Assembly: GCA_037176725.1 (NCBI GenBank)
Contig: JAZBRS010000039.1
Location: 27,316,001-27,380,000 of the forward strand
Direction of reading: 5' to 3'
DNA length: 64,000 bases
From: Posidonia oceanica
Lineage: Eukaryota > Streptophyta > Magnoliopsida > Alismatales > Posidoniaceae
Positions 19,926-47,935 of the stretch are shown piece by piece. A program made the translations under genes and the position numbers. Under the pieces are notes generated by a model that did no database searches, was not told where the DNA came from, and was given only the letters and a program-made list of their open reading frames with translations. Position 1 is the stretch's first letter; the number at the start of each line of letters is the position of its first letter.

Positions 19926-21812
19926 TGTTGACACCCCATCTTGGCAGGCTTGGACCCTTGGAGCCCTCTTGATTGCTGGATCAAACCCCAACCAAACCCT
20001 AACCCTAGTCCTCCTCTCTACCCTTCAAAAACAGCCTGTCTTGGCCTAAACCTTTACCCCCCTTCCCAACCTCAAAACCTAACCAAAATTCATAGGAAAA
20101 CCCACCACTATCCACTCAACAAACCTACCCAAAAACCTAGGAATTTCCAAGCCTGACCCATTCCCAAAAACCCTAGAAAACTTAGGTGAAACTATCCTTT
20201 TTCTACACCTTGAAACCCCTCCAAAATCTCCTTAAAATCGAACCAAAACCTCAGACCCAAGACTTCAAACCCTAGACTACCCACCCACCAATTTTCACCC
20301 CATTCCAAGACCATTAAGACCCTCTTTCACTCAAATTATCCTTTTCTCTCTCCAGGATTATCATTTTCTCTCTCCTCTCTCTCTCCTGATTATCATCTCC
20401 CTTTTTCCCCCCTTCTCATCCTTTTTTGGGTCTGGCTGTGGGCCCCCTTTGTGCTTCTATCCCTCCTCTATTTTATCCTGATTTTTACTTTATTTTTAAC
20501 ACTTTTTCTGAATTTTTAAAAATCGTTTTCCTCCAATCTATCCTTTTTCCTTTTATTCCCCTTTTTATTCCATTTCTTCCCTCCTTCTCTTTTCCTTTTC
20601 TCCCTTTTGCAAAAATCCACAAAAACCCATAAAAATCTGTAAAATCTCAAAACATAAAACAAACAAATCAGTGCACTAAGAAAAACAATTAAAAATGTTA
20701 AACAAGCAATTAACAACTTAAACTTGACTTAAGCAAGCTAAAAAAAGAAAACCAAGCATGCAAACTAAAAAATGCAAAACAAATCAAAAGAAAATGCTGA
20801 AAAATCAAGGAAAAAGCTAAAATAAAATCCAAACCCACCAAAGGTAAAAACCCATCAGAGGAATTAAAAAACAAACCCAAAAAGAAGAATTAAAAAATCA
20901 AATACTAGAACAAGTAACTAAGAAAGGCAGAAGACTTAACCTAACAAACATACGAAAAACAAGTAAAAACTTAATTAAAAAAAGAAAAGAAAACACATTT
21001 GAAAAGCTTAAAAACACCCTATCAAACCAGAAAAATCCAACTAAAAACTTCAAGAAAAATCCATAAATAAAAAATCAAGACATAACTTAAAAGACTTAAG
21101 AAAGAAAAACCCTAAGAAGACTACAACTTTAAAATCTAAAACCAACCCTAAAATAATACGAAATAAATCCTGAAAAATCCTAATCAATACCCTAAGTGTC
21201 CAACAAAAGAAATAAAATTTTTAAAATAATTTAAAAAGGGATTAACAAACATTTAAACAAGTGAAAACTAATTAAAAGTAAAACCAAAGCCCTAAAACTC
21301 TAATCAAGCCCAAAACACATTAATCTACTCAAGATGACCATTAAAAATCTTAGTTAAAATCCTAATCTACAGCAAAACTCTTCTAATATTTTTAGTTTAT
21401 TTTTACCTATTTTATTTTCCCATCCTACCCCCTCTTTCTTCCTTATTTCCCTTCTTTCTTTCTTACTTTTCCTTACTGGGCCCTCCGGCCCGTTTCTTCC
21501 TTTTTCTTTTTATTTTTGTCGGCCCGCAGCAGCCCAGCCCACGCGACCCTTCTTCCTCCTCCACCTTCTGTGTTTTCTTCTTTCACACAGCTTTCTCTCC
21601 TGCGGCCAGCTGACATTCCCTCCTTCTTTTTTGAATTCAAGCTCTCCATCAGATCATGCAACAGCGTCCGCCGCTCTCTCATCTCTCAGCACCGATTCCG
21701 GGAGGCTTTAATTGCCTGTCGTCTCGCCGGCATCCGCTTCTTGTCTGCTGCAGTACTCGCGCCGGAGAAATTCGAAAATCACCAGCGCGCGCACCGGCAG
21801 CCCTCGGCCTGA

Positions 21813-21818
21813 TATAAG
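21813..21818 (+). promoter_or_regulatory. TATA-like box in the element A 5' LTR
   Basis: TATAAG within CCTGATATAAGCGCCC, 1887 bases from the LTR start. Element B has GATAAAAAG at nearly the same distance. The identical box in the other LTR of A is at 43909-43914. If used, U3 is about 1.9 kb and the RNA starts about 30 bases downstream. Confidence 0.5.
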
Positions 21819-24425: not shown

Positions 24426-25260
24426 GTATGCCCCCCTGAACCCCTGCATTGCATTCATTCGCATGGCATTTGCACAGTTTTCCTTGTTTTCGCTTTCTGT
24501 CTCTTTGAGCATGTAGAATAGGACTTCCCCTTTCTGCTTGTCTATTCAAATCCTCGTTTCGCGTTTCCCTGTGTGTTCCGTGTTGCGTTCTCCCTGGATT
24601 TGCCACTTTATGTGACTTTCTTCCCCTTTTTCCACGATCCGATCACATCGCGAGCTTTGGGCGGCATGCGAGACACATCGTGGAACGATTTAGTGGGAAA
24701 CAGTCACTAAGAGGTGGTAATCCCTCCGTTTGCACACTCTCCCCTCCGTAGATCTTCACACCTACTTGGAGAGGTCCAAAACAGCGTTTGTTCTTATACA
24801 CACGTTGTCTTGCCTCCCCTTTGACCCCTTTTAATCTTTTCCTGCATTCCTGCATTCTCGTGGCTTTTTCCGAGGTTTTTGCTTCACTGTTTTGGCACCG
24901 TTTCGCGTGCCCGCCCTCGTTTTCGCTCCGTTTTGCGTGCCCTTCTGTTTTCTTGTCTCGTTTTGCGCACTGTCTTGCCTTCTCGTTCGTTTTGCGTGCC
25001 GGTTTTATTCTTTCGCCCCGTTTTGCGTACCATTCTGTTTTCTCATCCTGTTTTGCGTGCCTTCCTGCTCTCTTGTCTCGTTTTGCACGCTGCCTTGTTT
25101 TCCGCTCGTTTTGCGTGCCGGTTTCGCTCTTTTGCATCGTTTTGCGTGCGTTGTTCGCTTCCCGCCTCGTTTTGCGTGTTTCGCGCCGTTTTCTCTTGCA
25201 TGTCGATCCCATTGCATGGTTTTCACGCTGTTTTGTTTTCTCGCTTGCATTTGCATATAG
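24426..25260 (+). other. Possible leader intron in the element A 5' LTR
   Basis: TTTCCAG|GTATGC at 24425/24426 and a pyrimidine-preceded TTTGCATATAG|GG ending at 25260 resemble plant splice sites. They are conserved in B and C. The interval contains the GTTTTGCGTGCC minisatellite (about 24895-25200). No transcript evidence is available from sequence. Confidence 0.4.
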
Positions 25261-25836
25261 GGCTGTGATGCTTACTGCCTGGAGTTCTCACGAGCTAGGT
25301 TACGCCTGGTTCGGAACACAGACAGCGCAGCTGAGCACTTAGAGAGCACGTTTACTTCCTTGCATTGTTTCTTCCCACTTAGAGCACTCCTTGAGCATTC
25401 ATTTAGGCATTCATAGGCACATAGGCATTCAATCCTGCATCTTTCTGTGTATGCGAGCGTAAGCCTAGAAAGACCGATTTTCAGGCGTGTCGGGGGTGCC
25501 TAATACCTTCCCCGCACGTAACAGGAGTCCTTACCCTGTCTTTTGGCCCGCAATGACTGTACCACCCTTATCCTAGGCTAGAGTCATCTCATTTGCATGT
25601 ATTTGCATTTGTTTCCCTTTGCATTGCTTTGCTTTGCATTTATTGCTCGGTTTTGCGCGTTAATTCACGCATTACCCCGGTTTTCCTCGTCTTCCGTTAA
25701 TAGACGTGGTGGCGACTCTGATTTGTCTTATCTTTCCTTTTTCTCCTCGATTTTAAGTGTTTTTCGAGTTGAGCCTCTTCCTCGGATCTCAATCGCCGCT
25801 AAATAGCGAGCCTGGTTCCGATCGGGATCGCTACAG

Positions 25837-27164: not shown

Positions 27165-29759
27165 ATGGCCCAGTACGTTAGTGAGCCTTCTTTTACTCCT
27201 GTCACGGAGGGTGTTTCCGTTCTGGCCCCCCCGGTTGCTCTTTCTGTCCCACTTGTTCCCCCTCCGACGCCAGGGTTTCCTCCTCTGACGTCTCTAGGTT
27301 CTCAGTACACCCCGGGACAGTGGCAAGCCTCCCTTCCTCCGGATCCGGTCGCCGAGTCTATCTTGACGGCCGTTACTCGCGCTCCGGAGACGCCACTGCC
27401 CCCTCCGTCCCAGGGATACGTCGCTTTCGACATCCCTTCCACCGTTGCTGCGACTTTCTCTGTAGAATCCTTCCCTCCCAGACCGTCTGTGTCCGTGCCA
27501 CTTGTTTCTCAGCCCCCGTCGGCACTGCACTTCAGCGTCCCTACTGCCGAGACGCCCGAAGCACAGTACCAGCACCTGATGGAGCTTGCCCAGAGACTGT
27601 AGGGCATGGCTCTATCAGTTCGTCCTCCTTCTGCTTCTGTCGTTCCTGAGGTTCCTCCAAGGCCAGTTCCTGCATTTCTTGCATCAACCTCTGCACCTCC
27701 GCCTCGACCATCGTTGCAACTGCTCACGGTTCCGGCGATGGGGGCTCGTTTACCGCCTCCTGCACAACACTTAGCACAGCATGCTCCACTTCCTTCTGGT
27801 GGTCAACCCTTTGGATCGGCTGGAGCCCAGTACCTCACTGGCTCGCTGTCTGGCACCCCGCCTGCACAGCAATTGGTGCTCCGCCATCCTACCCCTGTCC
27901 CAGCACAGCATGGCATTTATTCTTCTCCCCTCCCTCAAGTCCAGCATCCCGCATACACTCCTGCATACACTATCCCCCAGCACGGATACGCCGGCCATCC
28001 CGTTGCTCCACCAGGCGACGCTATGGTAGATCCGGAGGAGCACATAGGTGCGACCCATTCGGCGTATGTGCTCGCTACCCCTGCTGATCCCTCTCCTACA
28101 GCAGCAATCCCAGACCCCATTAATAACCGGATGGACGTCTTGGAGAAAGCACTACGACTAGTGCAGGGTACTGAGCACCAGACCTACCAATTCCGAGACC
28201 TCTGCTGCTTTCCAGAGGCGGTACTCCCTCCGAAGTTCAAAATCCCGGACTTCGAGAAGTATAATGGTAGGGGCTGCCCTGTAGCACACCTGAAGGCGTA
28301 TTGCGGTGATCTCGCTCAGCTTCAGGCTGACGAGAGGTTGCTGATCCGCTTGTTCCAGAAGAGTTTGACCGGGCCGGCACTCAAGTGGTTCACATCACTC
28401 GATATGTCAGCCATCAAGACTTGGAACGACCTCAGTCAGGCGTTCCTGGAACAATACTCCTTCAACCTCGATCTTGTCCCAAAGAGGGCGGACTTGATCG
28501 CCATCAAGCAGAACTCTAGCAAGCCGTTCGGGGAGTACGTCGGCCGCTGGCGCGCCCTTGCCTCTCAGGTTCGAGATAGACCCTCTGACGAGGAATCTAT
28601 CGAGATCGTTATCAAAGGGGTGCAGCCGTCTCTTGGAGCTCTGCTTAGCATCCAACCAGTCACTACTTTTGCGGCACTCATCAGAGCTGGAGCGCGCGTG
28701 GAGAGTTCTTTGCGGAGTGGCAACTTCCCAGCTCTCTCTGTGTTCGCTAAGCAGGCAGTGATAAGCAGCAACAGTGCCAACAGCAGCACCTCCAACAACA
28801 ACAACAGCGGCAGCAACAACAACCGCCCGAAGAGGAAGGACTCGCCGAAACCCGCTGTTGCATTTGTCGATTCTCCTGCTGTGCCTGTTCGCTTGCCGTC
28901 ACGGCCTGCCCCAGCTCAGATGGTGTACGCTCCTGCACCTAGGAATCCACACACACCGCACATCACAACCACCGCTAGACCGGTCTATCCTGCCGCACCG
29001 GTTCAGCAAGGCCCGTACCCAAGGCAAAGAAGACCACCCGCTGAGAGGAGGAATTTCACCCCACTGGTGGAACCGCTCACGGACATCTTGCCGAAGGTGG
29101 CATCGCTCCTGAAGTTCCCGGAGGTTCGTCCGCCACCAAGCCCTCTGCCGCATTGGTTTAGGCCGGACCTCTTCTGCAATTTCCATCGAAGCGTCGGGCA
29201 TTCGACGGACAATTGCTTCTCCCTGCGGAACGCAATTCAGGACCTGATCGAATCGGGAACGATTGTGATCGACACACATGAGGCTTCCACTCAAGCACGC
29301 ACCCATGCATCTGCATCTCCAGCTGTTCCCCCGCATTCTGGCATCGTCCGCCAACCTTTACCGGAGCACTCTTATCCGGGAAGGGCGGGAACCTCAGGCG
29401 TCCACTCTGTCTTTCCCTCTGGGCCCGCTACCTCTGTAGTAGACCCTTTCGATCTTATCTCTGACCTCTCTGAGCCTTTCCCAGTCAGTCTCTATTTGGC
29501 GGCAGTTGCCGGCTCCGAGTCGGGATTCCATTTGATCCGACTGCGTGCCAGGCCGGAGCGCCCTCGCGCGTCTCCCACCGTGCTCCCTCAGGCTCAATCT
29601 CCTGTACACCTTTTAGCCAGAGCCCAGCCTAGTTCTCCCATTCATCTTCTAGGGCGACCTCAACCACACCTTCTAGGCAGACCTCAACCTGCCCCAGCCT
29701 TCCCACCCCAACAACCATACCCACTAGATAGACCTCAGCATTCTATAGGCCCCCTGTAA
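27165..29759 (+). pseudogene. gag: Element A gag region (one nonsense, ends at a frameshift)
   Basis: The start is ATG at 27165 (MAQYVSEPS), because GTCAGCAATGGCCCAG is shared by A, B and C. The upstream in-frame ATG at 27006 is not shared. A Pro/Gln-rich N-terminal part is followed by a Retrotrans_gag capsid-like domain at about 28290-28580 (LTGPALKWF, FLEQYSFNLD), an Asn/Ser-rich basic linker (28760-28870) and a zinc knuckle at 29175-29216 of form C-X2-H-X4-H-X4-C, the variant typical of Tat elements. A TAG at 27600-27602 replaces the CAG seen in B. A one-base deletion near 29750 moves the reading to another frame, so the frame ends at 29757-29759. It encodes the structural protein of the virus-like particle and, in B, is continuous with pol. 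Confidence 0.93.
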
Positions 29760-30316
29760 CCCCTCCTGTGCTCGCAGCACGTGCTCCAGTCGTCATTGAT
29801 TTGACCCTGGACACCCATCGCATCCCCTACAGCTATGCCATAGAAATGTGCGCGGAAGTAACGCGATCGGGGAGGGTTTATAGGCCCCCAGCACCGGCAA
29901 CTAGGCCAACTCACCCTGGACCTGTTATACCCCCACCCTCAGGCCAACCCTTAGCAGATCCAGCCCCAGATCAGCCTGTAGTTAGCCAAGCCCCTAGCCG
30001 GCCTGTAGTAACCCAGCTTCCTGCCACTACCCCTGTAGAACCTGCTAGAATCACCCCTCCAGCTGCTAGGAGAGACCAACCTAGAGCAGACCTAACCTCC
30101 CAGCTTAAGAAGGTTAAAGCCGACATCTCTATCTGGGATTTGATCCACACTTCTGCCGAGCACCGCGAGGCTTTTCTTCGCGTGTTCCAGGCTGCTCGTG
30201 TGTCCCAGTCCATTGAGCCTTCTGCCTTGGAGAGCATGGTTGGGTTAATCGCGGAGCCCCAGGTCATCTCTTTTACGAGTGATGAGCTGCCTCCGGCGGG
30301 GATTAATCACAACTAG
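29760..30316 (+). pseudogene. Element A gag-protease linker region
   Basis: This is the continuation of the polyprotein after the frameshift, read in the new frame to the TAG at 30314-30316. That codon is CAG in element B. The segment is Pro-rich (29880-30070) and ends with a short conserved region (SIWDLIHTSAEHREAFLRV, LIAEPQVISF). Regions like this precede the protease in Tat-type polyproteins. No enzymatic motif is present. In B the same residues are continuous with gag and protease. Confidence 0.85.
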
Positions 30317-33300
30317 CCCCTATTCGTCACGGTGCAGTTCAAAAACTTTCGCATTCCCCTAACACTGGTTGATAACGGGTCAGGCCTTAACGTCTGCCCC
30401 TTGCGTACAGCAACCAAGCTCGGATTCAAAGCCGAGGATATCACGCCAGCCGTAAAGGGAATGACTGCTTTTGACAACACTCACCATGACGCTCTAGGGA
30501 TTCTGATTATCCCTCTGGCTATCGGCCCGGTCGTCTTCGACGTAGAATTCTATGTCGTCGACTTGAAGCCTAACTTCAATCTTCTGCTTGGGCGCCCTTG
30601 GCTTCACAAGCATCAGGTCCTTCCTTCGACCCTCCATCGAATGATAAAGTACCGTCGTGGCGATGATGTCATTGTCGTCATGGCGGAGAACTTTGAGAAG
30701 GAGCGGATTGAAGCAGTCTCTCCCGTGTCTTCGCAATCCATCCCATTTGACCCTGAGACTTCTGAAGCCCTCTATCGCGTTAACCGGTGCGAGCCAGTTA
30801 ACTTCGTTCCTGATCTTGAACGTGTCAACTCTTTGGCTGTTCACAGTAACCCCTTTCGAATGGTCGAGAATGTATGTCACAGGTGGGGTTACACAAAGGG
30901 TACGCCGCTCGGGTGTCACGGCCAAGGGATCGCGGAGCCGATCATAGCAGTGGAGCGAAGGAAGTCTGAAGGTCTCGGCTACGAACCAAAGTTCGACGAA
31001 GATCACTGCTTTCAACTCAGAGATCGTGCACCAGCCATTCCCAGAGACCTCACTAACTTTACCAGTGCAGGAATTCTGGGATCAACCGACTACCAAGCCG
31101 CAGCGCCAATAGAGGATTGGGTGTGTGTTGAGGACTACTACTCGGATGAGGAGCAGTCTGATGCAACAGAGGCAGTCCCAATCAGTTCAGCAGAAACAGT
31201 GGTCAGAGCAGAGACCCCACAGTCAATTTATTTAGCTCTCCCTCTGGCAGAAACAGCAGGCAGTTCAGCAGGTCCTGTGGCAAATGCAAGTTCTCATCCT
31301 TTTCCAGCCACACCAGCTTCTCAAGAGCAGTCAGCAGCAGTGCAGGAGTCAGAGACACTCCTCTTGGCAGAACCAAGCATGCTACCAGCGGTCATAGCAA
31401 CATCAGTGCCACTGCCCCCATCTCTGGAGGGGCAGTCCATCAACTCAGTCAGCAGCGTGGCCCAGCCCGCTCCCTCAGCATCATCTTCAGGAATGCAGTT
31501 GGCCCAGTCCGCTTCGCATTCTCCTGACGACCTGCAGCAGCTCTCATGGCAGGACCCTATGGCGTCAGAGGCTGCGCTCTCTCAGTTACGGCCCGATACA
31601 AAAGGCCAACTGAGCACTACACTCTCCGGGCCCTTGAGCCCTCCAAGGAGCACCCCTGTTTACTCTTCCGTAGTGACCCTGGAAGCTTATCCATCAGCAG
31701 CACCGCTGGCCTGTCTATTTGGGCCTTCTACATCTGAACTGCCATCAGCGGACGCGCCCGTGAACCAGATCATGCAGACCCCAAGGGCGGCGATCCATCT
31801 TGCAGCCGGGCCAGTGCCGCAGGCCCCCAGCGCCTACTACGTCGACTCCCCCTCAGACGAGGAAGAAGGAGCGGCGATAGAAGCCCAGGTCGATTCTTGG
31901 ATGTCCGACTTAGAGCTACTCTATCAAGAACAGATCAAGTCGATAACAGAAGACCTGGCAGATCACCAAGCTGCAGAAAGGAAAGGAAAAGCCGTAGTCA
32001 TGGATCCTCCTCTGCAAGAGGACCATGCTTCTATCATGGTCCTGGAAGACTCAGCAACGCCGGACTCCCCTAGACCAGATGAGCTCATCAATCTTCAACC
32101 AGAAGGTGGGTCTAGGTGGTTTGTACAACCCATGCCTCACCTGAGCAATATATCGAGCGGTAGTAACCAGATTAGCCGCCAGTCTGGCATATCCTCCACA
32201 AGCACACTAGAAGACCCAGAGGGAGGAACATCAGCAGTACATGCAGCAGCAGTAACAGAGCAGAATGCCTCAGCAGTAGAGCAGTCAGCAGCCTCGGCAG
32301 CAGAACAGTCAGCAGAGCAGTCAGTAGTATCAGCAGCAGAATCAGCAGAGCACATAGCAAAGCCAGTCGGGCCAGAGCAAACAGCAGAAGGAGTTGCTAG
32401 GACGGAGGTCGCGCACCGAGGCTACAAGAATACTCGAGTAAGCGTGACCATCCTGAAGCGTCACCAGGGCCAAGCAGCAGAACACATACACTCTTTCAGC
32501 ATCACAAGCCCTTCTTTTGAGAAAGAGATCCTCTCAGAACTTATTGCCTATGGAGAGGAGGATGATACAGGCATGGATGAGACTGACGAACCTTTGCCCG
32601 AGTTCCGGCCCTATGACGACGACCCAGAAGGCCCCAACCTCCATGTCGAAGAAGAAACGGAGGTTGTCAACATCGGCACAGCTGAGGAAGTCAGAGAAGT
32701 TTGCATTAGTGCCCAGCTGCCCGCCCAGGCTCGAGCAGAATTCATCGCATTCCTGAAAGAATATGCGGATGTCTTCGCTTGGAGTTATGAAGATATGGTC
32801 GGCCTTGACATAGAGATAGTGGTGCACAATCTGCCCTTGAATCCAGATGCCAAGCCAGTAAAGCAGAAACTAAGAAGATGGCGACCGCAGTGGCTGCTCA
32901 TGATCAAGGAAGAGATAATGAAGCAGCTCGGAGTCAACTTTCTGAAGGTCGTTCTTTATCCTGAATGGCTGGCAAACATTGTACCTGTGCCCAAGAAAGA
33001 TGGCCGAATCCGGATCTGTATCGACTACAGGGACCTGAACAAGGCGAGTCCCAAGGACGACTTTCCATTGCCTCACATTGACGTCCTAGTCGACAATACA
33101 GCGGGCCACAAAATGCTCTCCTTCATGGACGGCTTTTCTGGATACAATCAGATCAAAATGGCAGAAGAGGACATGGAAAAGACTTCATTCATCACCCCTT
33201 GGGGAGTCTTCTGCTACCAAGTCATGCCGTTCGGCCTAAAAAATGCTGGTGCAACCTATCAGAGGGCCATGACTGCATTATTCCACGACCTCATGCACCA

Positions 33301-34069
33301 AGAAGTGGAGGTCTATGTAGATGATATGATCACCAAAACCAAAGAGCCCGAGGATCATCTTGCCTGTCTCAGAAAGCTCTTTGACCGTCTACGGAAGTAC
33401 AAGCTGCGCCTGAATCCCAAGAAGTGCGTATTCGGGGTGTCTTCTGGCAAATTGCTCGGCTACATTGTTAGCCAAAGGGGGATTGAGGTGGACCCGTTGA
33501 AAGCACAAGCCATCGTGGACATGCCACCCCCTAGAACTGAAAAAGAAGTCAGAAGTCTGCTTGGGCGTTTACAATTTATCAGTCGCTTCATTGCACAGCT
33601 TACGCCCATCTGCGAACCCATATTCAAGCTCTTAAAGAAGAATGCGCAGATTCACTGGAGCGAGGAGTGTCAGGCTGCATTTGCCAAGATCAAGCAGCTG
33701 TTGATCAAGCCTCTTGTCCTGGTCCCGCCTACGCCGGGGAGACCTTTACTTCTCTACCTTTCTACCACGCAGCATTCCATGGGCGCCGTCTTGGGCCAAC
33801 ATGACGAATCTGGTAGGAAGGAGCGCGCCATCTACTACCTGAGCAAGAAATTTAATGAATGCGAAGCCAGGTACACAACACTAGAGAAGACTTGCTTGTC
33901 ACTTGTCTGGGCTGCACAGAAGCTGAGACACTACATGATGGCATACCCAGTACAGCTCTTATGCCGGCATGATCCTATCAAATTCCTCTTCCAGAAGCCG
34001 ACCATGGTGGGCAGATGTGCTAAGTGGCAGGTGTTATTGTCTCAGTACGACATCACCTTCGTCACATAG
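30317..34069 (+). pseudogene. pol: Element A protease, reverse transcriptase and first RNase H
   Basis: The frame is open from the stop at 30316 to TAG 34067-34069. The first ATG at 30332 is internal and not a natural start. The aspartic protease motif DNGS (LVDNGSGLNVCP) is at 30371-30382. A long Ser/Ala/Gln-rich linker with acidic patches follows (about 31130-32650). Reverse transcriptase is at about 32950-33480, with PVPKKDGRIRICIDYRDLN, MPFGLKNAGATYQ and the catalytic YVDDM at 33314-33328. A Ty3-type RNase H-like domain follows at about 33735-34069 (LLLYLSTTQHSMGAVL, YYLSKKFNECEARYTTLE). The TAG at 34067 is CAG in B. The enzymes copy element RNA into DNA in the particle. Apart from the stop codons, catalytic motifs look preserved. 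Confidence 0.94.
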
Positions 34070-35941
34070 AAATCCATGAAGGGTCAAGCAATGGCAGACC
34101 ATCTTGCTGACCTCCCTCTGCCTGAATACCAACCCCTCCAGATGCAGTTCCCTGATGAAGACATTCTCTTTGCAATGGAGGACTCTGAGCAGAAAAATCC
34201 TGAAGAACCAGAGGAATGGCAGCTCTACTTTGATGGTGCAGTCAACAAGAAGGGCCGAGGCGTAGGCGCAGTGCTGGCCACGCCCCAAGGACAGATGACT
34301 CCTTTCGCGAGGAAGCTGACTTTCACCTGCACAAACAACGAGGCAGAGTACGAAGCATGCATCCTGGGGTTGAAAGTCGCCCTCGAGCATGAGGCGCAGA
34401 AGCTGCATGTGCACGGCGATGCCATGCTGGTAATTTCTCAAGTGAACGGCGAATGGAAGACAAAAGATCCCAAGCTTGTGCCGTATCACGAACACCTGCT
34501 GAGGCTGATGAAAGAATTCAAGAGCATCCGCTTCACATACCTGAACAGAGCAAAGAACGCGTATGTAGACGCGCTAGCAACTCTGGCATCCTGGCTCACC
34601 ATTTCTGAAGACAGCAGTGTGGATGTATCAGTCACTCGCATTGAACAGCCTGCATACTGCATGAGCATAGAAGAAGCGGATCCCACAGAGGGGCAGCCCT
34701 GGTATCAAGACATAAAATCTTTCCTGGAGTCTGGTAACTTTCCTCCTGATACCACGGCAGCAGACAAGAGAACTTTGGCACGTCTGGCGTCAAAGTATGT
34801 GTTAGGGGCCGGGCAGCTGTACAGAAGATCATACAACCAGATGCTACTGCGCTGCCTGAACAAATTGGAGGCGGATACGCTGATGCTTCAAGTGCATGCG
34901 GGGACTTGTGGCCCGCACATGAACGGCGTTCTCCTGGCCAAGAAGATCATGCTGCAAGGATATTTCTGGCAGACCATGGAAGCATACTGCTGCCGGTTCG
35001 TGCGTAGATGCCACAATTGTCAGATCCATGGAAACTTCATCAAGGCCCCTCCACATCAGCTGTACAACATGTCTTCGCCATGGCCTTTCTCCACCTGGGG
35101 GATCGATGTCATCAGCGCCATCCACCCTGCTGCTTCAAATGATCATCGTTACATTCTGGTAGCGATCGATTACTTTACCAAGTGGGTGGAAGCAGCCTCT
35201 TACAAGACAGTCACCGCCGTGGCAACAGAAAAATTTATCAGAAACAATATTGTTGCCCGATATGGGGTCTCGTACTCTGTCATCTCTGATAACGGCTCAA
35301 ACTTCATTGCCAAAAGGATCGAAGAATACTTGCAAAGCCTCAGAATCAAGCACCATCGATCCTCGCCTTATCGGCCTCAGATGAACGGAGCAGTGGAATC
35401 TGCAAACAAGAACATTGTCAAGATCCTGAAGAAAATGGCAGAAATCCACAAGGATTGGCACGACAAGCTCCCGTACGCGCTCTGGGCGTACAGGACATCA
35501 ATCCGGACCTCTACAGGAGCCACCCCGTACTCTCTGGTGTACGGCATGGAAGCGGTATTACCTGTTGAAGTGGAGATCCCCTCTCTGCGGATCCTGCGGG
35601 AAGCTGAGTTGGAAGAAGCAGAATGGGTCGAAGACCGCTGCGTCCAACTAAACTTGATTGATGAGCGCAGATTACAAGCCATGCACAACGCTCACTGCTA
35701 TCAGAAGCGGATGGCCAGAGCATTCTTGAAGAAGGTCCAGCCCAGAAGCTTCCAGCCAGGGGACCTTGTCTTGCGCGCCATTCACTTGCCGGACGATCGA
35801 GGGAAATTCCGGCCCAATTGGCGTGGCCCCTTCGTGGTCAAGCAGATCTTTTCAGGAGGCGCTGTAACTCTTGAGGATATGGACCAGGTCGAGCAGTCTG
35901 AGCCCGTCAACCTCTGTTATCTAAAAAAGTACTATCAGTAG
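34070..35941 (+). pseudogene. pol: Element A second (archaeal-like) RNase H and integrase
   Basis: Same frame as the preceding segment, open to TAG 35939-35941. The second RNase H is at about 34215-34590: YFDGAVNKKG (first Asp near 34232), NNEAEYEACILGL, HGDAMLVISQ and YVDALATLAS carry the acidic active-site residues. Two RNase H domains in series are the hallmark of the Tat lineage. Integrase follows: zinc-binding HAGTCGPH and CHNC (about 34890-35030), core D in WGID, D in ISDNGSNF and E in NGAVESANK, with 35 residues between the last two (about 35100-35400). The C-terminal KFRPNWRGPFVV is the GPY/F module; there is no chromodomain. This part has no internal stop and would need read-through of 34067 to be made. 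Confidence 0.93.
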
Positions 35942-37456: not shown

Positions 37457-38659
37457 ATGGGTTTTCCTACTCTGTTGACTCCCGCACACTGCTCGGAAAC
37501 CCTGCGAGAATGGATCAGCAGGCTCACTTTATAAGACTGTGAAAAGTTGCGCTTGTGGGGCATACCAACTAAGCTGCTAAAGGCTGCTGATGTGGAGGTC
37601 AGCCGCCACCTTCTGTGTGCCGCCGCGAGGTTCTGGAAGCCGGCGCATCATGTCTTCCGCTTCAACAAAACTGAGCTGACACCTACACTGGAAGAGGTGC
37701 GTCGGATATGCGGCTTTTCAAAGATCTTGGGGCCGCCTGTCTTCATGAGGCGCGACGGATATCTCCGAGTCCTGAACCAACTGACTGGACTCTCCACTCA
37801 AGCCTGCCAACAAAAGCTAATCTGCACCAGTGGACAAGAGCCTATGCTTCGCCTTGCGCACTTTGATGAAATCTTGAACAAGCGTGCTGACCTCGGGGAT
37901 GAGCTGTGGCTCCGAGGATTCGTCATCCGCTTTCTGGGCGAACTAATCTTTACTCATGGCCGACTGACAGTGGCCATCGAGGTTGCAGAGATTGCATTAG
38001 CTGTGGTGACCCAGCATATAGATCTGGCACCAGTTGTCTTGGCAGAGACTTATCGCGGGCTGGACCGCATTTCTCATCGCTGCCGCCACCTCCACGGTTG
38101 CGGAGCACTTATACAAGTCTGGCTGATCGCGCACTTAGAAATGGACTTCCTGCGCCCTCAAGTGCATGCTTTCGAAGCCTACTGCAGTAGCGCCCGTACC
38201 AGAGCAGACAAGAGCGTCAAAGAAGAGTACGAGAAGCTGTCAGCACTGACTGACGATGCTGTGACCTGGCGTATCATTCCCTCTGCAGCAGAGCCCTTCA
38301 CAGTCTTCTTCAGCGCGCGTGACACGCGGCTGATCATTCTTCCAGGCTTCACAGCAGGCGTAGAGTACCATCCAATCAGGGTCATGCGCCAGTTCGGCTT
38401 CCAGCAGGGCGCCTTCATCGACAGTACAGCGCCCGAGCTTCTACAGACTTATTCTCTCAGCACCACTGCCCCAACCAAGAAGCTTGCTAGTCTGATGCAG
38501 CATGGGGTCCAATCTACAGACGCTGCAGCTGTGAGAGGTACTGGATGCACTTCTGATTATGAAGCGGAAGTCCGACAGCTCTGGCCAATCACTGAAGTCC
38601 CGCCAGGCGGCCCCTTATTCCCCGACTCCAGGCAGCCGAAGAAGGCCCGGGTTGACTAG
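37457..38659 (+). pseudogene. Accessory ORF of element A, DUF7745/plant-mobile-domain-like, one nonsense codon
   Basis: This is the same 400-codon unit as complement 16025-17227. It starts MGFPTLLTPAHC at 37457 and ends PKKARVD at 38659, same frame throughout. A TAA at 37532-37534 stops it after 25 codons; an open frame resumes at ATG 37547 for 370 aa. At the break B has CCACAA and A has TTATAA, three C-to-T changes in six bases. Otherwise about nine residues differ from the B protein by eye. The motif pattern (FWKPAHHVFRFNKTELTPTL, LRGFVIRFLGELIF, GCGALIQVWLIAHL) and role are as for B. A shorter product starting at 37547 is conceivable. Confidence 0.75.
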
Positions 38660-39629
38660 GCCCTTGTGCGATCATCATGTGGTCTTTTTTTTATGCTGTA
38701 CATTTCTGGCCTGCCTCAGGCATTGTACTTATCAAGATCATATCAATGGAAACTGTTTCTGCTTTCTGCTTGCACATCAAGACTCTTTGCTGCATTGCAT
38801 ATCATCGTCATCATTATCTTGGGCCCTCTAATCAGACTTGCAGACATCCCAGCGCGGCGAAGTCCTCAGCACCCAATCCGGAGCCCAGAGCATCTGCAGG
38901 CCCGCGACACTCAGCTCCGCTGTCCGGCATCCCCAGTTGGTCGCCCCCAGCTGGACCACCGTCCTCTATGGGCTGGCACCCCAAACTGCCCGGCGAAAGG
39001 TCCGTCAACCTGTTATCCTCCTCAGCTGTTCATCCTCAGCTGAGTCCCTCGCGGGTTGGCACCCCAAACTGCTCGGCGATGGGTCCGTCAACCTATCATC
39101 CATCCACTCGCCTATCTGTCCTTGCATCCTGATGCCAGGGGCGTACCGACCATCCCCTGGTATCATCCTGATACCAGGGGCATCTTTTGGTCACCCGGTG
39201 GTATCATCCCCAGCTGATCATCCCCAGCTGAGTCCTCTTCTCGGCTGGTCATCCCCAGTCGAGTCCCCAGTTGGTCGCCCCCAGCTGGATCATTATCTCT
39301 GCGAGCTGGCACCCCAGACTGCTCGGCGAAAGGTCCGTCAACCTGACACTCTTCTCGGCCGGTCATCCCCAGCTGAGTCCCCAGCTGATCGCCCTCAGCT
39401 GAATCCCTTGCGGGCTGGTACCCCAAACTACTCGTCTGACAAGCACGACACTCTTGTCATCACTCTCTGCTTTCGATGCCATGGACGCGCTGGCCAACCC
39501 CTGGTGTCATCCCGACACCAGGGGCATCTTTTGATCGCCCCACGGTATCATTCTCTCCCCCTTTCCCCTACGACGTTCCTGGCGTCATAGGGATGGTTTC
39601 TTCTCATCATTCCCTTACCCCTTCTTTGC
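38660..39629 (+). repeat. Palindrome-rich duplicated blocks, element A
   Basis: Four related blocks carry GGCACCCCAAACTGCTCGGC followed by GGTCCGTCAACCT (about 38973, 39057, 39307, 39414). Between them are CAGCTG and CCAGYTGG inverted repeats. Two long hairpins, 39154-39180 and 39498-39524, have 11-bp stems of the CCCCTGGTRTC type. Smaller ones include GACAAG..CTTGTC (39438-39458) and GACG..CGTC (about 39571-39586). The three overlapping ORFs here are not conserved as protein. Confidence 0.75.
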
Positions 39630-40375
39630 CGGCCGATAAGTCCGATATCTTATCATTCTCATCATGATCTCATCCCCTCTTTAGCTTAATTTCTCATCAT
39701 GATCTCATCCCCCTCTTTAGCTTAACTTCTCATCATGATCTCATCCCCTCTTTAGCTTAATTTCTCATCATTATCTCATCCCCTCTTTAGCTTAATTTCT
39801 CATCATTATCTCATCCCCTCTTTAGCTTAACTTCTCATCATTATCTCATCCCCTCTTTAGCTTAACCTCTCATCATGATCTCATCCCCCTCTTTAGCTTA
39901 ACTTCTCGTCATGATCTCATCCCCTCTTTAGCTTAACCTCTCATCATTATCTCATCCCCTCTTTAGCTTAACTTCTCATCATGATCTCATCCCCTCTTTA
40001 GCTTAACCTCTCATCATGATATCATCCCCTCTTTAGCTTAATTTCTCATCATGATCTCATCCCCCTCTTTAGCTTAATTTCTCATCATGATCTCATCTCC
40101 CTCTTTAGGTTAATTTCTCATCATGATCTCATCTCCCTCTTTAGATTAATTTCTCATCATGATCTCATCCCCCTCTTTAGTTTAATTTCTCATCATGATC
40201 TCATCCCCTCTTTAGCTTAATTTCTCATCATTACCTCATCCCCTCTTTAGCTTAATTTCTCATCATGATCTCATCCCCTTCTTTAGCTTAATTTCTCATC
40301 ATGATCTCCCCCCCCTCTTTAGATCAACCTCTCATCATTACCTCATCCCCTCTTTGCCGGCCGATAAGTCCGATA
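39630..40375 (+). repeat. 35-bp minisatellite of element A, about 20 copies
   Basis: Units of 34-36 bp read CTCATCATGATCTCATCCCC followed by TCTTTAGCTTAATTT. Each contains the ATCATGAT palindrome. The array is flanked at both ends by GGCCGATAAGTCCGATATC with CTTATC. It is shorter in B (about 13 units). The repeats have no spacers of unique sequence, so it is not a CRISPR-like array. Confidence 0.92.
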
Positions 40376-40429
40376 TCTTATCATTCTCATCATGATCTTG
40401 CCCCCTCTTATCAATCAATCAATCACTCG

Positions 40430-41470
40430 TGCTAGGCTGATATCCGAAACTATCAATCTATCAAACTCGTGCTAGGCTGATATCCGAAACTATCAACAAT
40501 CAATCACTCTCAGGCTGATAACCTAAACTATCTTCTGGCCGATCCATGGTTGGCCCGCAGTTGTGTTATACGGCTGACATCCAGTAACTGTCCCTCGTAA
40601 TTGCACTTTTCCAGTTGATAGGTCTGTAAACTATCCACCGGTTGACAGGACCGTAAACTGTCGCTCCAGTTGGTAGGACTGTAAACTACCGCGTGCAATT
40701 ACGTTATACGGCTGACATCCAGTAACTGTCCCTTGCAATTGCGGTTTCCAGTTGATAGGACTGTAAACTATCCTCCAGTTGATAGGTCTGTAAACTATCC
40801 ACCGGTTGACAGGACCGTAAACTGTCGTTAGGCTGATACTCCTAAACTATCACCCGCAATTGCATTATACGGCTGATATCCAGTAACTATCCCTCATCAT
40901 TGCGCGTTTCCAGTTGATAGGTCTGTAAACTATCCGCCGGTTGACAGGACCGTAAACTGTCGCTCCAGTTGATAGGTCTGTAAACTATCCACCAGTTGGT
41001 AGGACTGTAAACTACCACGCGCAATGATGTTATACGGCTGACATCCAGTAACTGTCCCTCGCAATGCTGTTTCCAGTTGATAGGACTGTAAACTATCCAC
41101 CAGTTGATAGGACTGTAAACTATCCGCCGGTTGACAGGACCGTAAACTGTCGTTCCAGATGATAGACTGTAAACTATTCGGCATTGCGTTATACGGCTGA
41201 TATCCAGTAACTATCACTCATGGTTTGTGGGTTCCGGTTGACAGGACCGTAAACTGTCGCTCCAGTTGATAGGTCTGTAAACTATCCACCGGTTGACAGG
41301 ACCGTAAACTGTTGCTAGGCTGATACTCCTAAACTATCACCCACAACCATGTTATACGGCTGATATCCAGTAACTATCACTCACAACTGCTCCGGTTGAC
41401 AGGACCGTAAACTGTCACTCCCGGTTGATAGGACCGTAAACTATCCGGACGATAAGCCCGTCACCTTATC
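40430..41470 (+). repeat. Hairpin array of element A folding as a closed many-way junction
   Basis: The core is 40557-41390. Six modules of GGCTGAYATCCAGTAACTRT alternate with clusters of three or four leaf hairpins (GATAG, GACAG or GGTAG stems, nine-base GNCYGTAAA loops). The arm after each module pairs with the arm before the next: 40596-40606 with 40693-40703, 40734-40744 with 40854-40864, 40896-40907 with 41017-41028, 41060-41069 with 41179-41188, 41220-41231 with 41340-41350. The first arm 40557-40565 pairs with the last, 41382-41390. Extra hairpins lie outside the core, and a T-run follows at 41471. The function is not known. Confidence 0.92.
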
Positions 41471-42005
41471 ATTTTTTTTTCCCTTTTCGGTGTGACCTTG
41501 TCCCAGGAAGACAAAGTCACGCACCCCCTTTCTGCGATAGGAGAGTTGGCCTCTCTCCCCTCGTGCCCCTCTCTCTTCTTTCCTGCTAGCTTGCTCCCTG
41601 GGCGGGGACCAGCTGCACCCTGTTTTCCTTCGCTTTGTCGTGCAAGTCTGCCCTCCCTGCCAGACATTTGCACCACATCGCGCCTTTTTACCATTTTCTT
41701 GCATCATCTCTGCACTTTCTTAGCTAGCACTGCATGTCATTTTAGCATCATCAGTATCACTTGCATAGCATCAGCATTTTCTTACAGCTGCACTAACTTT
41801 TATACTAACTCTTGCATTGCATTTAGCATATCACACACACAGCACAGCATCCATCTGCATTGGCATCTTGCATTGCGGCAACGAGCTACGATCTTCGGTG
41901 CATCCGCCGAATAAGTAGCTCACGCCCATAGCAACCCGCTGCACCCGCCGGTCAGATGGGGTGTCTTGTCAACCCTGAGCAGCGGCCGCGCTCCGCTTGC
42001 CCTCG
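41471..42005 (+). other. Element A region between the hairpin array and the polypurine tract
   Basis: No gene is supported. It starts with a T-run and an imperfect hairpin (GTGTGACC..TTGTC with GACAA..GTCACGCAC, 41490-41525). Pyrimidine-rich sequence and a CATCA/TGCA-rich stretch (41690-41880) follow. The last 50 bases contain an inverted copy of the LTR start (41955-41980). Confidence 0.6.
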
Positions 42006-42021
42006 CTCAGGGAGGGGCATC
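42006..42021 (+). other. Element A polypurine tract
   Basis: CTCAGGGAGGGGCATC directly before the 3' LTR start at 42022, identical in element B. It is the expected plus-strand primer site. Confidence 0.87.
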
Positions 42022-45000
42022 TGTTGACACCCCATCTTGGCAGGCTTGGACCCTTGGAGCCCTCTTGATTGCTGGATCAAACCCCAACCAAACCCTAACC
42101 CTAGTCCTCCTCTCTACCCTTCAAAAATAGCCTGTCTTGGCCTAAACCTTTACCCCCCTTCCCAACCTCAAAACCTAACCAAAATTCATAGGAAAACCCA
42201 CCACTATCCACTCAACAAACCTACCCAAAAACGTAGGAATTTCCAAGCCTGACCCATTCCCAAAAACCCTAGAAAACTTAGGTGAAACTATCCTTTTTCT
42301 ACACCTTGAAACCCCTCCAAAATCTCGTTAAAATCGAACCAAAATCTCAGACCCAAGACTTCAAACCCTAGACTACCCACCCACCAATTTTCACCCCATT
42401 CCAAGACCATTAAGACCCTCTTTCACTCAAATTATCCTTTTCTCTCTCCGGGATTATCATTTTCTCTCTCCTCTCTCTCTCCTGATTATCATCTCCCTTT
42501 TTCCCCCCTTCTCATCCTTTTTTGGGTCTGGCTGTGGGCCCCCTCTGTGCTTCTATCCCTCCTCTATTTTATCCTGATTTTTACTTTATTTTTAACACTT
42601 TTTCTGAATTTTTAAAAATCGTTTTCCTCCAATCTATCCTTTTTCCTTTTATTCCCCTTTTTATTCCATTTCTTCCCTCCTTCTCTTTTCCTTTTCTCCC
42701 TTTTGCAAAAATCCACAAAAACCCATAAAAATCTGTAAAATCTCAAAACATAAAACAAACAAATCAGTGCACTAAGAAAAACAATTAAAAATGTTAAACA
42801 AGCAATTAACAACTTAAACTTGACTTAAGCAAGCTAAAAAAAGAAAACCAAGCATGCAAACTAAAAAATGCAAAACAAATCAAAAGAAAACGCTGAAAAA
42901 TCAAGGAAAAAGCTAAAATAAAATCCAAACCCACCAAAGGTAAAAACCCATCAGAGGAATTAAAAAACAAACCCAAAAAGAAGAATTAAAAAATCAAATA
43001 CTAGAACAAGTAACTAAGAAAGGCAGAAGACTTAACCTAACAAACATAAGAAAAACAAGTAAAAACTTAATTAAAAAAAGAAAAGAAAACACATCTGAAA
43101 AGCTTAAAAACACCCTATCAAACCAGAAAAATCCAACTAAAAACTTCAAGAAAAATCCATAAATAAAAAATCAAGACATAACTTAAAAGACTTAAGAAAG
43201 AAAAACCCTAAGAAGACTACAACTTTAAAATCTAAAACCAACCCTAAAATAATACGAAATAAATCCTGAAAAATCCTAATCAATACCCTAAGTGTCCAAC
43301 AAAAGAAATAAAATTTTTAAAATAATTTAAAAAGGGATTAACAAACATTTAAACAAGTGAAAACTAATTAAAAGTAAAACCAAAGCCCTAAAACTCTAAT
43401 CAAGCCCAAAACACATTAATCTACTCAAGATGACCATTAAAAATCTTAGTTAAAATCCTAATCTACAGCAAAACTCTTCTAATATTTTTAGTTTATTTTT
43501 ACCTATTTTATTTTCCCATCCTACCCCCTCTTTCTTCCTTATTTCCCTTCTTTCTTTCTTACTTTTCCTTACTGGGCCCTCCGGCCCGTTTCTTCCTTTT
43601 TCTTTTTATTTTTGTCGGCCCGCAGCAGCCCAGCCCACGCGACCCTTCTTCCTCCTCCACCTTCTGTGTTTTCTTCTTTCACACAGCTTTCTCTCCCGCG
43701 GCCAGCTGACATTCCCTCCTTCTTTTTTGAATTCAAGCTCTCCATCAGATCATGCAACAGCGTCCGCCGCTCTCTCATCTCTCAGCACCGATTCCGGGAG
43801 GCTTTAATTGCCTGTCGTCTCGCCGGCATCCGCTTCTTGTCTGCTGCAGTACTTGCACCGGAGAAATTCGAAAATCACCAGCGCGCGCACCGGCAGCCCT
43901 CGGCCTGATATAAGCGCCCAATTCTCCCCTCCTTCGAACACCTTTTTTGGCCATCCGAGATTGAGTGCCAGACCAGAGAGGAATCAGTGCGAATTCCACC
44001 TTCTTTTCCCCACCTGAAACAGCTTCTGATCTCTTCCTCTTCATCCTCCGTTTCGAGAGAAAAGGGAGCAGTGAGGGTAGAGTTCGAGAGTCCCTGTGAC
44101 ATCCCGGAGAGAGGCCTCATCTCAGACCAATCCCCGCACCCAATTCTCCTCTCCTCTCCTCTGAAAATTCAGCAAACGTCCCTCTTCCCTTTCCAATTCC
44201 CCAGCACCACTTCAGACCTCCATCTCCCTCCCAATTACTCCCCCAAGTTCACCCAAAACCCAGCCATTTCCCAGCCTCATTCCCCGGCCATCCCACCCAC
44301 TGAAACCACCTGAAGCCAACTGCCACCAATCTGCAACCCAACACCTGCCCACTTCACAATTCCCTCCACTCCAGCCCGCTACTTCCCTCCAAACTCCACC
44401 CAGAGATTCACTGAACCTCCACCTTCCTAGAACACCTAACTTCCAGCCCGGCCATCCCCCACAGACTGTAAACTCCACTACAAACAGTTCCTCCACCCAC
44501 TGACCAGAAATCGACCCCGACCTCAAACTCCCCTCCACGCCTTCCAGAAGCCCTCTCCAGGCACCCAAACTCCATCGCCAACATCCCAGCAACCCATCGG
44601 AGGGCTCCACTCCACCGGACGAGCAGCAACACCCCTCCCCGACCTCCGGCAGCAATCTGACAACCCAAAAAAGCCAACTCCTCACCCAAGCTCCGAAGCT
44701 CGCGCCTGATCGTTCAGGAGGCACCGGAAGATCACCCTGAGGACGCCCGGACCACCGCGAACTGCCAGCACCCTCCGCAGCAACCGGACGACGAGCTCCG
44801 GCCAGCTCCTGTGCAACTGAGGTCGGGGGCATGCTCTGGACACGACCAGAGGTAAAATTCCTTTCGCCTAGATCCCTCTCCTCCTCCTGCTACTTTTCCG
44901 TGGGTCAGAACCAAGCTCCGAACCTCTCAGACGCCGCAGCAGCTCGCCGGACAGGTCTCCTTCTCCGGCGCCGGCCGCTCTTCCTCCGGACACTCTGGCC

Positions 45001-47930
45001 AGCAGAGCGAGCCCCGGACCATTCCCAGAGCTCCGGACGATCGCCGACGTTGCCCTCCGCCCGACTGCGCATCCTCAGCCCCCCTGTGCCGACGGTCACG
45101 AGCTCCGGCAGCCAGCTGCTACAGCGCTCGTCACCGTCGGCCGACACTGTGCCTTTATTTTTGCATTTATATGGTTTTTAAGTGAATATTGCATATTTGG
45201 TTTAAGTTTCTGTCATTTTACATTCCAGTCCTTATTTCATTTAGTCTGCTTGGTTTTTAATTGAATACTATGCTAAATTGCACAATCTGTTTATAGTTTT
45301 CAATATTTGCAAGTAGATCCATTTACTGTGCTGTGCTGTTATAATATTTTGTAGTTTAGTCCACCTGTTTTCTTTTTTTTGCACTTAAGTCCTGCACCAA
45401 GTCAGTTCATTTATTTACTTATATTTTACCATACTGCATTGCATCCTGGCCCCTTGCATGTTTTTATTTTTGCATTTAAGTCCCATGCACTGTTAGAACT
45501 TAGGATTATTTTTTATTTTTGCATACTGCATTGCATTCCAAGTCCCTGCATTTTTCTGTTTTTGCATTTAAGTCCATGCACTGTAGAAACTTAGGTTCTG
45601 ATTTTTATTTTTGGTTGATGCATTGCATATTTGCCCCTCTGCTTTATCATATTTGCAGTTAGGTCCATTTTAAATGGACAGTAACTGTGCTGCATGCATT
45701 TTAACTTACTGCATTGCATTTTTAACCCCATATTTTCCAGAAATTGCACTGTGGTCCTGTCATTTAAATTCCAGAGCATGTTTTCCATACTAAATTGCAT
45801 TTCCAGCCCCTACATGATTTCAAAACTACACTTAGGTCCCTGCATGCTTTAAAAAATCATGAGAAAAGACCATTTTGCCCCTAGGTTGCATTTTAGCCCC
45901 TATGCCTACCAAATTTCATACAGACCTTCCACTAGTACCCCCAGACTCCCCAGGACCTTGTTTTCTGGAAAATTTGCATTTTAGACCCTAGATTTTTTCA
46001 AAATTGCACTCTGACCCCTTTTGGTTTCAAAATCTCTTTCAAAGCATACCTTCTTTTCAAAACACCTTTCTGAGCCTAGTTTTTTGCCAAATAGACCCTT
46101 GTCTTCCCCTGTTTTCAAAATCCTCTCCTGTGGAACCCTGTTTTCTGGGAAATTTGCATTTTTAGTCCCTCTTCTTTTTCAAAATGCTTTCTGAACTCCT
46201 GGTTTTTCCCAAATTACTTCTCTTTGCTTTTCTTGCTTTTGCATGCATCCTGCACTCATTTAGTCTTGCATTTTAGCATCTCCTTGCACACACTTAGCAC
46301 TTCTAGCTCCCTTTCACTTGGGAGGACCTTTTTGCACATCCCTAGGACCTCCTGAACACCTAGATCTGTTCTTCTCCCCTGTTCTGGCCCTTCTGCCTTG
46401 GAGCTGCGATATCTTCCAATCCGGCCGTTGGATCTTCTCAAGTGAGCTGCCCAAGCGATCGCAGCGAAGCGCTCTTCAGCATAGACCAGACAGATTTCAG
46501 ATCAGGCTCCCGGATTTCCAGGTATGCCCTCCTGAACCCCTGCATTGCATTCATTCGCATGGCATTTGCACAATTTTCCTTGTTTTCGCTTTCTGTCTCT
46601 TTGAGCATGTAGAATAGGACTTCCCCTTTCTGCTTGTCTATTCAAATCCTCGTTTCGCGTTTCCCTGTGTGTTCCATGTTGCGTTCTCCCTGGATTTGCC
46701 ACTTTATGTGACTTTCTTCCCCTTTTTCCACGATCCGATCACATCGCGAGCTTTGGGCGGCATGCGAGACACATCGTGGAACGATTTAGTGGGAAACAGT
46801 CACTAAGAGGTGGTAATCCCTCCGTTTGCACACTCTCCCCTCCGTAGGTCTTCACACCTACTTGGAGAGGTCCAAAACAGCGTTTGTTCTTATACACACG
46901 TTGTCTTGCCTCCCCTTTGACCCCTTTTAATCTTTTCCTGCATTCCTGCATTCTCGTGGCTTTTTCCGAGGTTTTTGCTTCACTGTTTTGGCACCGTTTC
47001 GCGTGCCCGCCCTCGTTTTCGCTCCGTTTTGCGTGCCCTTCTGTTTTCTTGTCTCGTTTTGCGCACTGTCTTGCCTTCTCGTTCGTTTTGCGTGCCGGTT
47101 TTATTCTTTCGCCCCGTTTTGCGTACCATTCTGTTTTCTCATCCTGTTTTGCGTGCCTTCCTGCTCTCTTGTCTCGTTTTGCACGCTGCCTTGTTTTCCG
47201 CTCGTTTTGCGTGCCGGTTTCGCTCTTTTGCATCGTTTTGCGTGCGTTGTTCGCTTCCCGCCTCGTTTTGCGTGTTTCGCGCCGTTTTCTCTTGCATGTC
47301 GATCCCATTGCATGGTTTTCACGCTGTTTTGTTTTCTCGCTTGCATTTGCATATAGGGCTGTGATGCTTACTGCCTGGAGTTCTCACGAGCTAGGTTACG
47401 CCTGGTTCGGAACACAGACAGCGCAGCTGAGCACTTAGAGAGCACGTTTACTTCCTTGCATTGTTTCTTCCCACTTAGAGCACTCCTTGAGCATTCATTT
47501 AGGCATTCATAGGCACATAGGCATTCAATCCTACATCTTTCTGCGTATGCGAGCGTAAGCCTAGAAAGACCGATTTTCGGGCGTGTCGGGGGTGCCTAAT
47601 ACCTTCCCCGCACGTAACAGGAGTCCTTACCCTGTCTTTTGGCCCGCAATGACTGTACCGCCCTTATCCTAGGCTAGAGTCATCTCATTTGCATGTATTT
47701 GCATTTGTTTCCCTTTGCATTGCTTTGCTTTGCATTTATTGCTCGGTTTTGCGCGTTAATTCACGCATTACCCCGGTTTTCCTCGTCTTCCGTTAATAGA
47801 CGTGGTGGCGACTCTGATTTGTCTTATCTTTCCTTTTTCTCCTCGATTTTAAGTGTTTTTCGAGTTGAGCCTCTTCCTCGGATCTCAATCGCCGCTAAAT
47901 AGCGAGCCGGTTCCGATCGGGATCGCTACA
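42022..47930 (+). repeat. Element A 3' LTR (5909 bp)
   Basis: It is the same as 19926-25835 apart from about 40 substitutions and one missing base near 47908. Most differences are transitions. The TATA-like box is at 43909-43914. The possible intron and decayed minisatellite (about 46991-47296) are repeated here. It ends GATCGCTACA, followed by the GACGT target duplication. Confidence 0.96.
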
Positions 47931-47935
47931 GACGT
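47931..47935. repeat. Target-site duplication of element A, right copy (GACGT)
   Basis: It follows the right terminus of A directly. It differs by one base from the left copy GACGC at 19921-19925. Confidence 0.8.

Follow-up and report, generated by a model that had tools for sequence, protein, structure and literature searches.

Does the repeated, noncoding segment at positions 40557-41390 of this stretch of Posidonia oceanica DNA specify a structure, and if so, in which nucleic acid and for what use? The stretch, whose full 64 kb is referred to as the window, is a nest of long terminal repeat (LTR) retrotransposons, three elements one inside another. The segment is part of an array located between the plant mobile domain (PMD) open reading frame (ORF) and the 3' LTR of the plus-strand element, an Ogre-like member of the Ty3/gypsy Tat group. 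A preliminary description had proposed a closed many-way junction held by six different complementary arm pairs, and this proposal was upheld. Beyond it, we found a second interleaved stem in the small repeated units that line the branches of the junction (hereafter leaves), a covarying stem within the module itself, pseudoknots in a leader and a trailer, a second array in the minus-strand element and many genomic relatives. Our reading, to which we give a probability of roughly 55%, is that the Ogre-like genomic transcript carries the array as a conserved cis-acting RNA structure, which acts as a multivalent scaffold. Conservation of a structure as such is very probable from the sequence comparisons, and its formation in the sense RNA is also probable.

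The coordinates, letters and six GGCTGAYATCC modules of the preliminary description were correct, the motif starting at 40572, 40710, 40871, 41036, 41195 and 41358 in the ring; two additional exact copies start at 40435 and 40475 in the leader. With at most one mismatch and on both strands, 20 copies are present in the window (2 within PMD ORFs), compared with a mean of 1.85 and a largest value of 6 in shuffles. The ring does occupy 40557-41390 as described, but the structure extends further, into the leader and the trailer. The predicted features are:

40557-41390, plus strand: entire closed junction, with closing stem, six modules, five branches and 19 leaf pseudoknots
40557-40565, plus strand: closing stem, 5' strand, partner of 41382-41390 (mean pair probability 0.99)
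41382-41390, plus strand: closing stem, 3' strand
40566-40592, plus strand: junction module 1 (TTATACGGCTGAYATCCAGTAACTRTC; stem GAYA/TRTC)
40704-40730, plus strand: junction module 2
40865-40891, plus strand: junction module 3
41030-41056, plus strand: junction module 4
41189-41215, plus strand: junction module 5
41352-41378, plus strand: junction module 6
40596-40703, plus strand: branch 1, arms 40596-40606/40693-40703, 3 leaf pseudoknots
40734-40864, plus strand: branch 2, arms 40734-40744/40854-40864, 4 leaf pseudoknots
40896-41028, plus strand: branch 3, arms 40896-40907/41017-41028, 4 leaf pseudoknots
41060-41188, plus strand: branch 4, arms 41060-41069/41179-41188 with one G-U, 4 leaf pseudoknots
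41220-41350, plus strand: branch 5, arms 41220-41231/41340-41350 with one bulge, 4 leaf pseudoknots
40358-40532, plus strand: leader, pseudoknots 40358-40382 and 40512-40532
40434-40455 and 40474-40495, plus strand: two weaker units of the same kind in the leader, only two first-stem pairs each, from reading of the sequence
40537-40555, plus strand: hairpin abutting the closing stem, loop UCCAUGG at 40543-40549
41393-41470, plus strand: trailer, pseudoknots 41393-41416, 41422-41445 and 41446-41470
13203-14173, minus strand: second array, within the minus-strand element, six modules, one with 1 mismatch

The unconstrained minimum free energy (MFE) structure contained all six arm pairs, including the G-U in the fourth, the bulge in the fifth and the pairing of the last arm with the first that closes the circle. 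Nine bases were paired in the closing stem and 11, 11, 12, 9 and 11 in the successive branches; mean pair probabilities were 1.00, 0.99, 0.98 and 0.94 for branches 1-4 and 0.83 for the outer six pairs of branch 5. In the comparison with dinucleotide shuffles that had been suggested at the outset, the array folded better than the controls (MFE -260.9 vs -227.8 +/- 7.4, n=60; z -4.5). Swapping the 3' arms among themselves gave worse energies (-243.1 +/- 4.8 in 40 derangements, lowest -255.8), in agreement with the earlier remark that the arms differ from each other yet each pair matches. The three sense frames of 40430-41470 are interrupted by 28, 20 and 28 stop codons, and protein coding was rejected for this segment.

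Diverged relatives were then used to ask what is retained. The main sample comprised 31 arrays: the two of the window and, from 29 of 30 clusters, 29 within the first 6.3 Mb of contig C1. Near-identical copies of the two window arrays (L001-L038) were left out of the counts, and the 30 overlapping loci L039-L068 were reduced to one per array (9). Inclusion in the sample required at least one exact module, and a module was counted if it had no more than 6 mismatches in 27. A later set of six hand-picked arrays, cut at 1.2 kb, was read by the same rules. Exactly six modules were found in 25 of the 31 arrays (8, 5, 5, 4, 4 and 3 in the others) and in 4 of the 6 later ones, giving 29 of 37 combined. 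Branch kinds vary between families while the module count stays at six; in L072, L097 and L098 both the kind and the order of the branches are unlike those of the window, and six modules are still present. Module spacing ranges from 82 to 229, yet these arrays, like L052, L060 and L077 below, all retain six modules. Where arrays were inspected leaf by leaf, each branch bore two to six pseudoknots in a row, about 25 nucleotides (nt) each.

The arms vary as well and continue to match. In branches 3 and 4, for example, the arms of L052 and L060 differ from those of L077. Among the 25 six-module arrays, to which the rank tests were confined, the true partner was the best of six for 133 of 150 arms, second for 10 and lower for 7, with a mean pairing energy of -14.0 kcal/mol compared with -6.2 kcal/mol; in the later set it ranked first in 32 of 34. 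The preliminary description had regarded relatives that keep the arm letters and lose complementarity as a sign of a mere by-product of amplification. By these ranks, diverged members keep complementarity. For 70 distinct arm pairs, 84.1% of cells were paired, and permuting whole 3' arms within homologous branches reduced this to 78.0 +/- 1.0% (max 81.6%, n=2000). Arm matching therefore exceeds what shared branch identity provides.

The module is the most constant component. Across 179 modules from the 31 arrays, 24 of the 27 columns of TTATACGGCTGAYATCCAGTAACTRTC are 91-100% conserved; two of the remaining three covary with each other and one stands at 84%. The flanks of other families diverge much more: among loci reaching far enough, local alignments gave 56-66% amino-acid identity for the PMD (4 loci) and 73-84% identity for the LTR start (6 loci), and the stretch downstream of the array is about 68-82% identical outside the window's own subfamily (22 of 29 loci). 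In the whole 2.96-Gb assembly (80 contigs), the varying module stem pair of exact modules was T-A in 77,734, C-G in 46,900, T-G in 266 and C-A in 983, so that 124,634 of 125,883 (99.0%) were Watson-Crick and 1,249 were mixed. The C-A form is carried by descent in a subfamily that includes the minus-strand element of the window. Allowing up to two mismatches, the assembly contains 179,012 modules, compared with 3 matches for the pattern read backwards. Viral contigs gave 0 matches for the two exact patterns searched.

The leaves had been described as small hairpins. Their stems GATAG/CTATC, GACAG/CTGTC and GGTAG/CTACC are indeed present and covary, but the plain hairpin was ruled out, as a second, interleaved stem covaries inside the same leaf. 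In leaf CCAGTTGATAGGACTGTAAACTATC, CAG/CTG interleaves with GATAG/CTATC, and both stems are changed in the sister type CCGGTTGACAGGACCGTAAACTGTC. We searched for H-type pseudoknots with a first stem of at least 3 Watson-Crick pairs, a second of at least 4, and loops 1, 2 and 3 of 1-3, 0-3 and 3-6 nt, respectively. The 1,126 bases of 40350-41475 contained 24, compared with 1.27 +/- 1.04 in shuffles (max 4, n=100) and a mean of 1.12 (max 5) in 52 stretches elsewhere in the window.

Covariation was assessed for two leaf classes. In class 1 (508 leaves, 31 arrays), the middle first-stem pair was GC in 392, AT in 76, AC in 21, GT in 17 and others in 2, that is, 95.5% paired compared with 83.9% expected; most remaining class-1 stem pairs vary too little for testing. 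A fourth first-stem pair (5/13) is conceivable but not conserved (62.4% vs 62.0% expected), and the first stem therefore has three pairs. In the second class (NGGCTGATA..CCNAAAC), the matching pair was AT 67, TA 44, GA 17, CG 7 and AG 7, with AA 4, TG 4, GC 1 and CA 1 as rarer combinations; 123 of 152 were paired, compared with 70.0 in shuffles (max 92, n=5000). Differing class-1 neighbours allowed pairing within a leaf to be separated from pairing between leaves. The first stem matched its own leaf in 104 of 130 cases and the neighbour in 26, and the second stem matched its own leaf in 89 of 92 and the neighbour in 3. The stems thus pair inside their own leaf, with both interleaved stems held by covariation within the unit, and on this comparison the leaves are predicted to be H-type pseudoknots.

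A number of observations weigh against a conserved sense-RNA structure, and two other explanations draw on them. The first is that roleless units and inverted copies were duplicated as a by-product of repeat amplification, much like the neighbouring hypervariable tandem repeats. The array is built of repeats, many sampled copies are decayed, and 8 of the 37 arrays have a module number other than six. All relatives come from one genome, so that the copies are related and the counts are not independent events; the module pair pattern may stem from few ancestral changes that were then copied. Amplification would nevertheless leave unexplained why arm matching exceeds branch identity, why both leaf stems covary, why six modules persist where branches and leaf numbers vary, and why 24 of 27 module columns stand at 91-100% next to flanks of about 68-84% identity in other families. 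We regard this explanation as highly improbable.

The second places the function in DNA, as cruciforms, palindromic protein-binding sites or a single-stranded cDNA fold during reverse transcription. The arms are inverted repeats in DNA too, and the minus strand likewise gives a stable fold (-270.1, z -3.7). A sense-strand excess of G-U is absent everywhere it was counted: G-U and A-C numbered 82 and 97 in the leaves, 11 and 13 at arm positions 1-7, and 266 and 983 in the module. These counts do not discriminate RNA from DNA. Decayed copies under neutral change would be expected to give roughly equal numbers of the two, and methylation-driven mutation bias may be part of the explanation of the module figure. 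Separate cruciforms, on the other hand, do not predict two interleaved covarying stems in one leaf, and the loop lengths suit the sense strand: the reverse complement of 40350-41475 yielded 5 pseudoknots compared with 24, a contrast that is supportive but not independent, given that the pseudoknot rule was fixed after the leaves had been seen. The 29 genomic arrays yielded 7 to 27 on the sense strand and 4 to 20 on the reverse complement, with equal numbers in L070. The folding energies, too, are on the opposing side, though nested energies do not decide whether both leaf stems form at once. The MFE structure pairs them otherwise than through the second leaf stems, and a nested structure with only the arms and those stems scores -185.4, worse than the MFE; the scoring covers nested energies only. 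Overall, a DNA-level feature appears improbable to us, a role of the single-stranded cDNA being a residual candidate.

The arms, both leaf stems, the module stem and the near-constant six are thus each supported by comparison of sequences, and from these we infer formation of the sense RNA structure in vivo and a scaffold function. By virtue of its place in the element, the array should fall within the transcribed 3' region. In the proposed structure, six near-identical modules would be interspersed with six helices, namely the closing stem and the five branch stems, to form one closed ring (a 12-way junction when the module stems are included), and each branch would carry several H-type pseudoknots in a row. 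The location upstream of the 3' LTR, the conservation of six modules and the many equal units suggest a multivalent cis-acting scaffold, a proposal for which we see about even odds. Many equal binding sites on a closed frame could attract a protein of the element or of the host to the full-length RNA, and the likeliest purpose of such recruitment would be nuclear export or packaging of the unspliced genomic RNA. Ogre transcripts are partly spliced in two legumes (PMC6317226), so unspliced genomic RNA may need help in leaving the nucleus and in being packaged. Export or packaging in particular is ranked first among the functions, with low confidence, and is offered as a tentative assignment. 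A more speculative and rather unlikely extension is that the array represents a large ornate RNA of a new class, whose ring binds to a protein assembly that is itself ring-shaped, for example a hexamer; selection for this docking would keep the number at six, and the array would be the assembly and selection signal of the genomic RNA.

In tobacco mosaic virus (TMV), the upstream pseudoknot domain comprises three pseudoknots. As in the array, they are of the H type and follow one another in the 3' part of a plant RNA (PMC5382211); unlike them, the array has 24 detected ones, which are predicted to sit on the branches of a closed six-unit junction. The likeness raises the main rival to export or packaging, namely a 3' translation or stability domain in which the pseudoknots act like those of TMV, promoting translation of a long RNA or protecting it from decay, and the ring is a mere support. 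A plant RNA element with repeated H-type pseudoknots in its 3' part fits such a role. If a row of pseudoknots sufficed, it would be unexpected that the six junction modules and their number are the most conserved parts, and the array, lying upstream of a 5.9-kb LTR, is probably not at the extreme 3' end of the RNA. We consider this role possible, on the unlikely side, and keep export or packaging of a scaffold-bearing transcript ahead of it.

Retroviral export elements, the constitutive transport element (CTE) and the Rev response element (RRE), have repeated protein sites. Like the array, they are structured cis-acting RNAs located towards the 3' end of the RNA of a retroelement (PMC4829213, PMC10309623); the array differs from them in shape and size, and the likeness is in place and repeated sites only. 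These retroviral elements are a precedent for export, and the same texts add the retrotransposon Cer1, which requires its CERV protein to export genomic RNA. In Ogre and Retand, the place that the array occupies, downstream of pol in a Tat element, is taken by tandem repeats (PMC7004042, PMC11963269). They are described as variable and head-to-tail, unlike the array; the term "secondary structure" is absent from the available text of both reports, as are "pseudoknot" and "hairpin" from that on Retand. The counterpart of these repeats in the window is not the array but the 35-bp repeat at 39621-40397. This pyrimidine-rich tandem repeat has about 17 overlapping copies, and a pseudoknot-like unit, CCGGCCGATAAGTCCGATATCTTATC, borders it on both sides.

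GOLLD, ROOL and OLE are, like the array, large elaborate noncoding RNAs with covariation support (PMC12286853); they form multimeric complexes in bacteria, whereas the array has six units in one plant retroelement molecule, and Rfam showed no sequence relation between them. The preliminary description knew of no element of this shape, and our searches agree. Rfam 15 gave no match for the window, L052 or L069 at the gathering threshold, for 40300-42030 of the window at E up to 1, or for 5 loci at E up to 0.1. The module and leaf letters are absent from the open-licence PMC literature, and nothing of this shape appeared among the matches listed there (titles and abstract starts) on retrotransposon pseudoknots, PMD, Ogre and Tat elements, TMV-like domains, export elements, repeated pseudoknots or Ogre 3' repeats, a scope that leaves subscription journals mostly outside. 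These results point to a predicted pseudo-six-fold closed junction that is undescribed as an RNA architecture. It would be new as an architecture; cis-acting RNA in retroelements is not new as an idea.

The remaining features of the nest are:

19925-25836 and 42021-47931, plus strand: 5' and 3' LTR of the plus-strand element (28 kb, LTR identity 99.34%)
27606-35941, plus strand: gag and pol ORFs of that element (gag; protease-G-patch-RT-RNase H, RT being reverse transcriptase; second RNase H-integrase)
37547-38659, plus strand: PMD ORF (PF10536), upstream of the array
62720-56883 and 12634-6797, minus strand: LTRs of the minus-strand relative enclosing the plus element (LTR identity 99.21%)
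about 0.6-6.3 kb and 62.7-63.9 kb, plus strand: pieces of the third element, enclosing the minus element

By eye, 5-bp duplications flank the plus and minus elements (AGACG and TCACT, respectively), and these two nested insertions lie within 6797-62720. In the plus element, RVT_3 (the second RNase H) follows RT_RNaseH and precedes the integrase domains, and a PMD is present in the extra ORF. A second RNase H between RNase H and integrase is the criterion for Ogre and Retand, and a PMD occurs in the extra ORF of 57% of Ogre elements (PMC6317226). Because of this domain order and the PMD, we place the element with the Ogre lineage of Tat as Ogre-like. Among the best 120 of 4,441 RT relatives, the named ones were from angiosperms except one labelled Salmonella; Tasmannia lanceolata and Vicia villosa were each at 68%. 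The 13 matK matches in the assembly are fragments (four loci read). The PMD protein search returned 22 short contigs of the European Nucleotide Archive (ENA), followed by Nicotiana proteins at 24-25%.

Several neighbouring stretches showed features of their own. The loop hexamer CCAUGG of the hairpin at 40537-40555 is self-complementary, a likeness to retroviral dimerisation loops; the hairpin was rejected as a general dimerisation signal, CATG preceding module 1 in 8 of 31 arrays and another unit being present in the others. At 41950-42050, and at the matching place in nine relatives, an alignment of 11 sequences predicts pairing of the segment just upstream of the polypurine tract with the tract itself and with the first part of the 3' LTR (GATGGGGTGTC with GACACCCCAT, CCCTGAGC with GCTCAGGG); such pairing might hold out the LTR end for reverse transcription or integration. 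After the PMD ORF, repeats at 38677-39590 show similarity in other families and contain two open frames (151 and 250 aa), being either a fast-evolving protein part or noncoding repeats. In an LTR-like part of the third element, 4747-5757, tandem units of about 30 bp contain three overlapping open frames of more than 330 codons.

LTR retrotransposons can fill much of a plant genome, and to our knowledge little is known of their cis-acting RNA signals. If the predicted fold is correct, the array would be an unusually elaborate natural RNA, a closed ring whose branches bear repeated pseudoknots, and it would open a direct route to asking how giant plant elements label the RNA that is theirs. Its 125,883 module copies, in four exact stem variants within one genome, allow the design rules to be deduced from natural variation. 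The 3' "tandem repeats" of Tat elements may hide further structured RNA that nested folding programs have missed.
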